Source: Desulfolithobacter dissulfuricans
GTDB lineage: Bacteria > Desulfobacterota > Desulfobulbia > Desulfobulbales > Desulfobulbaceae
DNA length: 64,000 nucleotides
Direction: 5' to 3'
NCBI RefSeq assembly: GCF_025998535.1
Contig: NZ_AP024233.1
Coordinates: 1,525,219-1,589,218 of the forward strand
Shown piece after piece: positions 31,480 through 35,784 of the stretch. The position numbers and the translations under genes were made by a program. Numbering within the stretch: the stretch's first letter is position 1; each line of letters starts with the position of its first letter. The notes beneath the pieces are model-generated. The model worked only from the letters and a program-made list of their open reading frames with translations, made no database searches and was not told the origin of the DNA.

Positions 31480-33252
31480 ATGAAGGTTCTGGTAATCGGC
31501 TCCGGTGGCCGGGAACACGCGCTGGTATGGAAACTGCGCCAGTCGGAAAAGGTTAAACAGATCTACTGCGCCCCGGGTAATGCCGGTATTCGGCGACAGG
31601 CGGACTGCATCGATATCGCGGCCAACGATCTTCAGGGGCTGCTTGCGTTTGCCCTCAAGGAAAAGATAGATCTCACGGTGGTCGGCCCTGAAGATCCCCT
31701 GACTCTGGGTATCGTCGATCTGTTTGAGGAGAACGGGTTGCGCATTTTCGGGCCCAGCAAACAGGCGGCTGAACTGGAAGGGTCCAAGGTGTTCACCAAG
31801 AACTTTCTGAAAAAATACAACATCCCCAGCGCGTCCTACAAGGTGTTCACCAAACGCGGAGCTGCCAGAAAATATATCGACAAGATCGGTGCTCCCTGCG
31901 TGGTGAAGGCCGACGGCCTGGCCGCCGGCAAGGGGGTTATCGTGGCCCATACCAAGGCCGAGGCCAAGAAGGCCGTGGACCTGATCATGAAGGACAAGGC
32001 TTTTGGCGAGGCCGGCAACCAGGTGATCATTGAGGAGTTTCTCACCGGTGAAGAGGCCTCGTTCATCGCCTTTACCGATGGCAAGACGGTTCTTCCCCTG
32101 CCGTCCTCTCAGGATCACAAGGCCATTTTCGAAGGCGACCGGGGTCCCAATACCGGTGGTATGGGCGCCTATTCACCGGCTCCTGTGGTTACCAGGGAGC
32201 TTGAGATGCGGATCATGAACGAGGTGATGCTGCCTACCATCCGTGGGATGGAGGCCGAAGGGCGGCCTTATAAGGGCATGCTTTATGCCGGGATGATGAT
32301 CAACGGCGATCGGATGGATGTGCTGGAATTCAACTGCCGTTTCGGCGATCCCGAATGCCAGCCGCTGATGATGCGGCTCAAGTCAGACCTGGTAGAGATC
32401 TTCGAGGCAGCCATCGATGAGCGGCTGGAAGAGGTTGAGCTGGAGATCGATCCCCGGCCGGCGGTCTGCGTGGTCATGGCTTCCCAGGGATATCCTGGAA
32501 AATATGTGACAGGCAAACCTATCACCGGGTTTGTCAAGGCCTCCCACATGAAGAATGTCATGGTCTTCCATGCAGGAACCGCCATCAAGAACCGGCGCAC
32601 CGTCACTGCCGGTGGCCGGGTCCTTGGCGTGACCGCCATTGGCCAGGATATCGCCAGTGCGATCAAGACTGCCTACGAGGCTGTCGGGGTTATCCACTGG
32701 GACGGCTGTTACTACCGCCGCGACATCGGCTACAAGGCCCTGCAGAGAATGCGGAAAAAAGATGCACCGGCGGTGGCCATTGTCATGGGCAGCGATTCGG
32801 ACCTGCCGGTCATGGAGGCGGCGGCCGACTTTCTCAGCTCGGTGGACATCAAGCATAAGCTCATGATCTCCTCGGCTCACCGCACCCCGGACGCGGCGGC
32901 TAGCTTTGCGAAAAACGCCAGGGACGAAGGAATCAAGGTGATCATCGCCGGTGCCGGCATGGCAGCCCATCTGGCCGGCGTGCTCGCCTCCCATACCACG
33001 CTGCCGGTGATCGGCGTACCCATTGACGCCTCGCCCTTGAACGGTCTGGACGCCCTGCTCTCAACGGTCCAGATGCCCCCGGGCATTCCGGTGGCCACCA
33101 TGGGGATCGGTAAGGCAGGGGCCAGGAATGCCGCGGTCCTTGCGGCCAGGATCCTTGGGCTTGAAGATCAGAAGATCGCTGCGGCCCTGGAGCAGTTCAG
33201 CCGCGAGATGGCCGAACAGGTGAGCCGGAAAAACGAAGCTCTTGGCAGGTGA
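31480..33252 (+). CDS. purD-purE: Fused phosphoribosylamine-glycine ligase and N5-CAIR mutase (PurD-PurE)
   Basis: The 590-residue protein joins two purine-synthesis enzymes. Residues 1 to about 425 are PurD, with GSGGREHAL, the ATP-grasp core (DGLAAGKG, TGGMGAYSPAP, EFNCRFGDPECQ) and the terminal GVLGVTAIG-type domain; it ligates glycine to phosphoribosylamine. Residues from about 430 are PurE, with VMGSDSDLPVM at 434-444 and SSAHRTPD near 464-471; it rearranges N5-CAIR to CAIR. No stop or start interrupts the junction at YKALQRMRKKDAP. PurD is normally about 425 residues and PurE 160, so both are complete. The next gene overlaps it by 4 bp. Confidence 0.92.
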   Translation: MKVLVIGSGGREHALVWKLRQSEKVKQIYCAPGNAGIRRQADCIDIAANDLQGLLAFALKEKIDLTVVGPEDPLTLGIVDLFEENGLRIFGPSKQAAELEGSKVFTKNFLKKYNIPSASYKVFTKRGAARKYIDKIGAPCVVKADGLAAGKGVIVAHTKAEAKKAVDLIMKDKAFGEAGNQVIIEEFLTGEEASFIAFTDGKTVLPLPSSQDHKAIFEGDRGPNTGGMGAYSPAPVVTRELEMRIMNEVMLPTIRGMEAEGRPYKGMLYAGMMINGDRMDVLEFNCRFGDPECQPLMMRLKSDLVEIFEAAIDERLEEVELEIDPRPAVCVVMASQGYPGKYVTGKPITGFVKASHMKNVMVFHAGTAIKNRRTVTAGGRVLGVTAIGQDIASAIKTAYEAVGVIHWDGCYYRRDIGYKALQRMRKKDAPAVAIVMGSDSDLPVMEAAADFLSSVDIKHKLMISSAHRTPDAAASFAKNARDEGIKVIIAGAGMAAHLAGVLASHTTLPVIGVPIDASPLNGLDALLSTVQMPPGIPVATMGIGKAGARNAAVLAARILGLEDQKIAAALEQFSREMAEQVSRKNEALGR

Positions 33253-34470: not shown

Positions 34471-35784
34471 TTACTCTTCGATGTCACATTCCGTCCCTTC
34501 GCATTCCACCTCGGCTACCAGGAAGCTGGCCTTGTAACCATGCTTTTTCAGCTCCTGGGCGGCCATGTCGGCCCGGGCGCCGGTGGTGCAGTGGACAAAG
34601 ATCTCCTTGTCTTTGGGAAGTTCACCGAGCCGGCTGCTGAGCTCATCGAGCGGGATATGAATGGCTTTGGCAAATTTCCCCTCGGCCGCTTCCTCGCGTG
34701 TCCGGACATCGAGAATCGCCACGTTCCTGAGCTGACCTGCGACAGCTTTTTCAAACCGGGCCAGCGACACCTCTCCCTTGCCTGGCTTGCGCTGCCATCT
34801 TATCTCGGTCACCACCGGGCCCTGTTCCAGGGTGCCGCCTGAATTGACCCATCCCTCAATGCCACCGGGTACCAGGGATACTTTCTTGAAACCTTCCTGG
34901 CGCAGCAGTCTCCAGGCCCTGGCCGCTTCCTTCTCCCGGTCACTGTAGAGGACAACAGGTGCCTTGAGCGGAATTTCAGACATCATATCCTTGAGACTGG
35001 ACGCCGGAATGGACACGGAACGTGGAATACGGCCGGTCCGATCCTTGTCTGCATCACGCAGGTCGATGAGAACAATGTTTCCTTTGCTGATAAACTCGCG
35101 CCCTGCATAGGTCGGATATCCGGCCTTTGCCCACCCCGGCTCGCCAGCGAGCAGAACGCGGATGTTGGTATAGCCCAGTTTCTTCGCCAGACCGGCGGAT
35201 TTGGTGGACATACCTCAGGTGGGGCCCCCGCAGTAGAAGATAAGCTGGCGATCCTTGTCCGGTGGCAGCAGGGAAGCCATTTCTTTCGCCTTGTCCACCG
35301 GGATGGAGATCGCCCCGGGAAGGTGCGAGGCCTGGTAGCGTTTGGCCGGCCTGGAATCGATCAGGACAACATCTTTCCTGTCATCGAGCATGGCCTTGAG
35401 TTCGGCCGGTTTGATTTCGCTGACCCCGGCCGGCAGCTTGGCCAGCTTGGGCTTGATGGACAGGGCGTAGAGATCCTTGACCCGTTTTTCGCAGTTAATG
35501 ATGGCGGCGTGGCCCTTGACAGCAAAATCGAGCCCCTTGGTCCGGTCATCGAACTTGACCATGACCGTCTTGCTCTTGGCTCCCTTGCCCACCTTGATGG
35601 AAATGGTTCTGGCCTTGTTGGACCTGCCGACCACCTTGCCCTTCAGGACCTTGTCGCCCACCTTTGCCACGGTGGCCGGGGCTTGGCTTGCCGTGTCCTG
35701 TCCAGACTTGGGTTGAACGCAGCCATAGGTGAGCAGCGAAACCATGATGCACAGGGGCGCCAGTCGGCGCAGGGACTTTTTCAT
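34471..35784 (-). CDS. Three-domain rhodanese lipoprotein with in-frame TGA, probable selenoprotein
   Basis: Read through a single TGA (35217-35215), this frame gives 437 residues. It begins MKKSLRRL with a signal ending in lipobox TYGC at about 18-21 and a small beta-rich domain to about 110. Rhodanese domain 1 follows, whose loop reads FYCGGPT-U-GMSTKSA with Sec at 190; homologues usually have Cys there. Domain 2 has YSDREKEA and lacks the catalytic Cys. Domain 3 has HCTTGARA with Cys. The two open frames on either side of the TGA are in the same phase and split one domain in the middle of its active-site loop. GGAGG precedes the ATG. A sulfur-transfer role in the envelope is inference; the alternative is two separate proteins. 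Confidence 0.85.
35177..35217 (-). promoter_or_regulatory. Sec codon and candidate bacterial SECIS hairpin
   Basis: UGA occupies 35217-35215. Twenty-one nucleotides later a loop GGUCU (35193-35189) is closed by the perfect stem CGCC/GGCG (35197-35194 and 35188-35185). A C.A mismatch, a U-A pair and a lower CCA/UGG pairing extend it. The GGUCU loop equals the one I recall from the E. coli fdhF element, and the distance fits bacterial SECIS elements, which recruit SelB. Confidence 0.75.

Follow-up and report, generated by a model that had tools for sequence, protein, structure and literature searches.

Table 1 of a 2026 review (PMC13188914) lists five forms of selenocysteine (Sec, U) containing rhodanese, with the motifs UxxS, UxxG, CxU, UxxG and UxxxxU, and credits the first of them, a PF00581 protein with the motif UxxS (WP_010941598.1), to Zhang and Gladyshev 2005. 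A selenoprotein list in PMC5029168 has an entry 'Sulfurtransferase homologous to a rhodanese-like protein' with the numbers 24 and 25. In sulfate reducers and sulfur disproportionators, the enzymes of sulfane-sulfur chemistry outside the inner membrane are only partly understood, according to passages in PMC12998232 and PMC9751629. Here, we analysed a window, which is a whole stretch of 64,000 nucleotides of Desulfolithobacter dissulfuricans DNA, and characterised in it a gene for a three-rhodanese protein with one in-frame TGA. An initial annotation of this locus had proposed Sec at the TGA and stated that Sec in sulfurtransferases was already reported in Desulfobacterota; this is true, but it is better known than was implied, given the five forms above. 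Our analysis indicates that the gene very probably encodes a selenoprotein, in which the UGA of codon 190 would be translated as Sec by SelB and a tRNA-Sec(UCA), directed by a hairpin located downstream.

The gene occupies positions 34471..35784 of the window on the minus strand and encodes an exported protein of 437 amino acids plus a stop codon when the single TGA is read through, and homologues align with it over the full length. The frame, which runs from 35784 to 34471, comprises 437 codons, and its sole break is the TGA at 35217-35215 (35215..35217, minus strand), codon 190, which falls in a column of TGA and Cys codons in the homologues and which we read as Sec; the frame then ends at an ordinary stop codon. 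The two same-phase open frames split by a single TGA that had been described initially, with no strand given, are therefore borne out as one minus-strand frame. The local sequence, FYCGGPT-TGA-GMSTKSAGLAKKLGY, also agrees with the earlier placement of the TGA inside a rhodanese active-site loop, with the same domain resuming after it. This is the active-site loop of rhodanese domain 1, which reads FYC185-GGPT-U190-GMSTKSAGLAKKLGY. The Pfam rhodanese model, PF00581, matches the window protein in three stretches with 156.5 bits against a cut-off of 22.2, which places the protein in this family, and no Pfam domain other than rhodanese scored above cut-off on it. The AlphaFold2 model, with a mean pLDDT of 87.3 and a pTM of 0.78, can be described as a strand-rich N-terminal domain followed by three rhodanese domains.

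The first segment of the protein (35719..35784, minus strand) is a predicted signal peptide with a lipobox-like sequence, LLTYGC, of which Cys22 is the predicted lipidation site; the lipobox pattern used is PROSITE-like. The same pattern fits 60 of the 104 haem-free homologues with an assigned start, and the N-termini of the homologues are hydrophobic, as judged by eye from their listing. The proposal that the protein is exported and lipid-anchored agrees with its own N-terminus, but the lipobox pattern does not extend to all members of the family. Residues 42-112 (35449..35661, minus strand) form the N-terminal domain, composed of β-strands [42-55], [60-65], [72-77], [93-101] and [104-112] in the AlphaFold2 model, and no Pfam match above cut-off was obtained for it.

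Rhodanese domain 1, which consists of residues 119-228 (35101..35430, minus strand), was recognised by Pfam and by Foldseek alignment to BH2092 (3nhv), and it contains the C-x4-U loop. The Cys185 codon at 35230..35232 (minus strand) is located at the canonical rhodanese catalytic position, and this residue is Cys in 142 of 144 homologues. Domain 2 (34807..35091, minus strand) has no active-site Cys, residues 278-287 being Cys-free in 144 of 144 homologues. Domain 3 (34510..34773, minus strand) has a canonical loop, C399-T-T-G-A-R404, in which Cys399 is found in 140 and Arg404 in 135 of the 144 homologues. The catalytic Cys that characterises the rhodanese superfamily is accordingly provided by Cys185 and Cys399 in domains 1 and 3, and is absent from domain 2, as anticipated when the second domain was described as dead and the third as having an intact Cys. 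The initial annotation had also assumed a Cys-to-Sec change in one domain. Sec is indeed found in domain 1, but the canonical catalytic Cys is still there, and Sec190 stands at the sixth loop position counted from Cys185, of which the domain 3 counterpart is Arg404.

Homologues matching at E 1e-30 or better were found in 123 of 195 related genomes, with the window's own genome counted. From 149 matches we retained a relatives set of 130 loci, which at the TGA column holds 90 TGA codons, 36 TGC or TGT codons and 4 paralogues that fail to align. The 19 matches left out, of which four have one TGA and 15 are stop-free, are the 17 weakest and two fragments. A phylum-wide draw gave 45 matches in 40 of 395 genomes. 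Twenty-five of these loci were read, 7 repeats of the relatives set were dropped, and the 18 new loci comprise 17 with TGA and 1 with Cys; among the unread matches, 6 have one TGA and 8 are stop-free, one of the latter a fragment. The 148 homologues together comprise 107 with TGA, 37 with Cys and 4 paralogues with a different, not alignable loop, a ratio of 107:37 that is not unbiased, since the unread matches lean to no TGA and the TGA share is thus higher in close than in distant relatives. The expectation that related proteins would have Cys at this position was correct, and the exchange of TGA and Cys is the pattern by which a bacterial selenoprotein is recognised. Among the loci of named genomes, which were scanned with a closer alignment (A2) because the wide one (A1) was too divergent, 71 TGA and 9 Cys were counted in the best 80 of 113, and these 80 loci and the 148-row set share some genomes. 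Their titles are mostly Desulfobulbaceae or Desulfocapsa, Desulfogranum, Desulfopila, Desulfofustis and Desulfobulbus, and some give only broad names. Cultured relatives in which the gene has TGA include Desulfogranum mediterraneum DSM 13871 (L188) and Desulfopila aestuarii DSM 18488 (L192).

The four paralogues, L146-L149, which are excluded from all the 144-row counts, carry a CxxCH motif and have the loop YGVGGCLSP, which has lost the first Cys and is spaced differently. No further TGA was found within the aligned span in any of the 144 rows. For 15 pairs of relatives, dN/dS was 0.05-0.25 upstream and 0.04-0.25 downstream of the TGA (two more pairs reached saturation in at least one part), and purifying selection that is alike on either side of the codon indicates one protein, rather than a gene followed by debris.

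In bacteria, the element that directs Sec insertion (bSECIS) is a stem-loop located just 3' of the TGA, with a G among the first two bases of its loop. A SECIS-type hairpin of this kind, UCCGCC-GGUCU-GGCGAA, is found at 35183..35199 (minus strand), in which positions 35194-35197 pair firmly with 35185-35188 and the loop consists of 35189-35193. The five-base apical loop, GGUCU in the window, starts 21 nt past the TGA and is closed by four pairs. In an alignment whose rows are gap-free over the 45 bases that start with the TGA or Cys codon, all four pairs and a G at the second base of the loop, in keeping with the bSECIS rule, are present in 107 of 107 TGA rows, whereas the four pairs are kept in 6 and the loop G in 10 of the 37 Cys rows. 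The codon usage over the hairpin differs accordingly. At codon +8, 84 of the 107 TGA rows and 2 of the 37 Cys rows have GGT. At codon +10, GCG is used by 96 of the 107 and 6 of the 37, against a background of 15-18% of the Ala codons further downstream in the same genes. The stem's two outer pairs are not kept in roughly half of the TGA rows.

Compensatory changes are seen in the stem, in which GCC with CTG is exchanged for GCA with CTT, and TCC with GCG for TCT with GCA; L242 and L254 combine GCG with GCC. Over the 96 distinct rows of alignment A3, the covariation score was 0.162 against a shuffled mean of 0.080 (sd 0.011; 0 of 500 as high), in shuffles that do not allow for the relatedness of the rows, and it was at most 0.061 when the partners were slid. 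Cells changed on both sides numbered 31 versus 14.6 in the shuffles; pairs changed on both sides numbered 4 versus 2.6 (45 of 500), which is not significant. The Cys rows gave 0.175 versus 0.153 (95 of 500), with no clear excess. When folding energies were compared with those of each sequence's own shuffles, the stretch from the window gene had a z of -2.75 and three TGA relatives had -4.18, -1.46 and -0.83, versus 0.14, 0.13 and -0.54 for three Cys rows. Rfam, searched over the window and at a lax threshold over the site, returned no SECIS family and one chance match to a lncRNA model. The search for a SECIS element suggested in the initial annotation has thus yielded a conserved SECIS-type hairpin with compensatory changes.

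The genome encodes the machinery for Sec. It has one tRNA-Sec above cut-off (73 bits, anticodon TCA, that is UCA), SelB (380 bits, above cut-off, with its wing domains present), SelA (637 bits, above cut-off) and SelD (352 bits, above cut-off), the last of which has an in-frame TGA of its own in AAGUAAKL; the proposed check for selA, selB, selC and selD was therefore positive for all four. Among the 87 genomes that contain the gene with TGA, SelB was detected at E 1e-65 in 76, and 7 of the other 11 have a tRNA-Sec; in the remaining 4 of the 87, which are drafts that are 85-94% complete, neither SelB nor tRNA-Sec was seen. One genome, G153, scored as 99% complete, has two tRNA-Sec matches above cut-off (70.6 and 58.7 bits) and no SelB at E 1e-65. 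The reading of the TGA as Sec, as first proposed, is thus supported by the column of Cys and TGA codons, by the conserved hairpin with its compensatory changes and by the Sec machinery. We also looked for homologues with separate genes in place of the single frame, and for an absence of the Sec machinery, and found neither.

Regarding function, Cys185 and Sec190 most likely act together as a selenol/thiol pair outside the inner membrane, where they would reduce sulfane sulfur or relay it. The protein would be exported and, in this organism, probably lipid-anchored. Cys185 of domain 1 would accept sulfane sulfur from polysulfide, thiosulfate or a persulfide, and Sec190, which is located at the loop position that holds Arg in a canonical rhodanese, would attack the resulting persulfide, so that sulfide is released or the sulfur is passed on. 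The Cys185-S-Se-Sec190 bond left behind would be re-reduced by a periplasmic electron donor. A thiol/selenol pair would be suited to this chemistry, since it could take up sulfane sulfur and, as a selenenylsulfide forms, resolve it to sulfide. Domain 3, with its C-x4-R loop, could be a site for loading or handing on sulfur, and domain 2 may be a structural spacer. The mechanism taken as a whole, with loading at Cys185, resolution by Sec190, loading or handing by domain 3 and domain 2 as a spacer, is tentative, and we give it somewhat less than an even chance of being right in all its parts. In sequence and fold searches of the PDB, domain 3 resembles the rhodanese domain of the NADH-dependent persulfide reductase.

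Two homologues, L102 and L124 (genus code g5), have Gly in place of Cys185 and retain the TGA and the hairpin. The Cys-Sec pair is consequently not needed in every member, and Sec may be the more essential of the two residues. In L102, the Cys of domain 3 is also replaced, by Ser, and Sec is the only chalcogen left at the three active-site positions.

A CxxCH motif is located N-terminal to the three-rhodanese body in 26 of the 148 rows, which comprise 19 with Sec (L133-L138, L140, L141, L143, L144, L246, L248, L250-L253, L255, L256 and L258), 3 with Cys (L139, L142 and L145) and the 4 paralogues that do not align. Among six of these proteins tried, Pfam recognised no cytochrome domain. Judged from this motif, the sister group suggests a c-type haem as the electron partner. 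The genome contains dsrA (594 bits), which marks the organism as sulfite-reducing. Flanking genes were scanned for an operon partner and none was found: they correspond to GreA, TetR, purD-purE, Sua5, Hpt, DUF5619, an HrpA-type helicase and a nucleotidyltransferase. By neighbourhood clustering, the same genes are again found close to the homologue in some of 81 loci, and because these neighbours are housekeeping genes they give no hint of partners. One of them, at 31480-33252 of the window, is a fusion of the purD and purE domains (GARS and AIR carboxylase) in one gene. A wider proposal would be that Sec at the sixth loop position makes this sulfurtransferase a selenol/thiol oxidoreductase of the periplasm that acts on polysulfide or thiosulfate and is served by a c-type haem, fused to it in the sister group. 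The enzyme would then belong to the little-understood outer steps by which Desulfobacterota reduce or disproportionate sulfur. This is possible, and in our judgement rather doubtful.

The explanation that competes best with the selenol/thiol pair also takes the protein as a selenoprotein, but as an ordinary sulfurtransferase or sulfur carrier, in which Sec tunes the cradle loop or carries sulfur with no net redox chemistry. Every domain that Pfam recognises in it is a rhodanese, Cys stands in place of Sec in 37 rows and domain 3 has the canonical C-x4-R loop, all of which would be expected of a sulfurtransferase. However, the loop of domain 1 has two chalcogens instead of Cys and Arg, sister proteins have a haem-binding motif, and Sec is generally a mark of redox sites. 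We regard this explanation as unlikely, although it carries appreciable weight.

A role in handling selenite, tellurite or another metalloid, like that proposed for the ExtH-ExtS cluster of Geobacter sulfurreducens, is improbable. ExtH (GSU2940), as it is described in parts of PMC5877670 and PMC6148476, is a rhodanese-family lipoprotein of 49 kDa, and it is by this description only that it resembles the window protein, which at about 47 kDa in full length is of similar size. According to the same sources, its gene adjoins those of the porin ExtI and of ExtKL, a predicted Sec cytochrome, and loss of ExtI impairs the reduction of selenite and tellurite. In contrast to that porin and cytochrome cluster, the window gene is found among unrelated genes, and none of the eight flanking genes scanned encodes a porin or a multihaem protein, so that the adjacency to extI and extKL that characterises ExtH is absent.

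If the TGA were a true stop codon, two proteins would be made, the second of which would be re-initiated at the ATG two codons on (35211). This ATG, which comes after TGA-GGT in the window gene, is present at codon +2 in 83 of the 90 TGA rows of the relatives set. However, it is also present in 14 of the 36 Cys rows of that set, it is replaced by AAC or AGG in L102 and L124 and by CTC, CTG or CTT in several rows of the CxxCH type, and a stop at this place would split one rhodanese domain within its catalytic loop. Furthermore, the aligned span is free of TGA in all 37 Cys homologues, and the hairpin travels with the TGA, which argues against a real stop and leaves this reading very improbable. 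Decoding of the TGA as Trp, Gly or Cys, by a changed code or a suppressor tRNA, is more improbable still. The TGA is in frame and Cys is the sole alternative to it in the rows that align at the column, but TGA is also an ordinary stop codon, at which 18 of the window's 26 long non-overlapping ORFs terminate, as do 11 of the 90 TGA-bearing homologues of the relatives set; moreover, the hairpin is tied to the TGA and the genome has the full Sec pathway. A pseudogene or a sequencing error, which a lone stop codon in an otherwise open frame could suggest, is refuted in practice by the occurrence of the same TGA in 107 of 148 homologues and by purifying selection that is alike on both sides.

With the codon taken as Sec, the distribution of Sec and Cys was mapped on a maximum-likelihood tree of the 144 rows, made by a quick search after masking of the Sec column and the 12 residues that follow it. 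The tree requires 17 Sec/Cys changes, of which supported branches force 14, versus a mean of 32.9 when the states are shuffled (0 of 500 as low). The tree cannot separate gain from loss, and only a decaying hairpin, where one is left, suggests a direction. L033 and L035, which are Cys rows nested in TGA clades, retain GCC GGT, but in place of the GCG that the closing pair requires they have GCA, and they are likely to be recent Sec-to-Cys changes with decaying hairpins. Among the rows fetched, 31 genomes have only the Cys form, and SelB is present in 31 of 31; Cys thus serves even where Sec is available. For one of these 31, G085, a further match that was not fetched bears a TGA. Four genomes have both forms. 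We had considered that the Cys form might be explained by loss of the Sec machinery, and this was rejected on the presence of SelB in all Cys-only genomes among the rows fetched. Repeated switching between Sec and Cys with SelB kept makes this family a good natural system for asking why cells pay for selenium.

The same genome encodes a second Sec-rhodanese, which is of another type. It is a rhodanese-rubrerythrin protein of 277 amino acids (L020:1447-2277, C1:813343-814173), located about 4 kb from selB, in which TGA takes the place of the codon for the canonical catalytic Cys (FYU-RSGKRS) and is followed by a hairpin. A match to this protein was found in 26 of 96 genomes, and 13 of the 26 have one TGA. 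The TGA is at the same place in the eleven TGA loci read (L259-L269), and L270 has Cys.

Searches of the literature found no description of a three-rhodanese selenoprotein, and none for the combination of selenoprotein, Desulfobulb and sulfurtransferase. Sec in rhodanese loops is already known; no description was found of the exported architecture with three domains, of the sister group with CxxCH or of the repeated changes between Sec and Cys. No NCBIfam model reached its cut-off on the window protein and the TGA breaks the frame in most rows read, so that ordinary annotation is likely to split the gene or call it broken. In bacteria that reduce sulfate or disproportionate sulfur, the gene is a concrete candidate for the sulfane-sulfur chemistry that takes place outside the inner membrane.

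The PDB sequence and fold searches returned mostly rhodanese-type domains, including CDC25 and MKP-type domains of the same fold. BH2092 from Bacillus halodurans (PDB 3nhv and 3o3w), a CX4C rhodanese, aligned to domain 1 by Foldseek at 1.6 Å over 106 columns, and its CX4C loop, YCWGPACNGATKAA, aligns to that of domain 1 without gaps and has the same length. However, BH2092 consists of a single domain and has no Sec. Among the best matches to the whole chain are 1yt8 from Pseudomonas and EanB (6ktv, 6h98), which also have tandem rhodanese domains, but their overall arrangement is not superposable on that of the window protein (rmsd about 15-18 Å), and we know of no Sec in either of them.

Among the known Sec-rhodanese forms, domain 1 is similar to rhodanese_LYCAU (NF041203, form 3, CxU), with 97 bits, and in both proteins Cys precedes Sec. 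However, the score is below the cut-off of 115, and Sec is two residues after Cys in rhodanese_LYCAU and five residues after it in the window protein. TsoB (NF045694, form 5, UxxxxU) resembles the window protein in having two such residues five apart, with Sec at the second, and domain 1 matches part of its model with 61.5 bits (E 4e-17), far under the cut-off of 805 bits. From the spacing of the motif, both Sec residues of TsoB would be located in one loop. TsoB differs in having Sec at both positions and a DsbD-like part, whereas the window protein has Cys at the first. Form 1 is likewise a rhodanese-domain protein with Sec three residues ahead of Ser, and the window protein shows the same UxxS motif in U190-G-M-S193. 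The table of the review gives no architecture for form 1, which is compared here by motif alone, and it is plausible that the window protein and WP_010941598.1 are in the same family.
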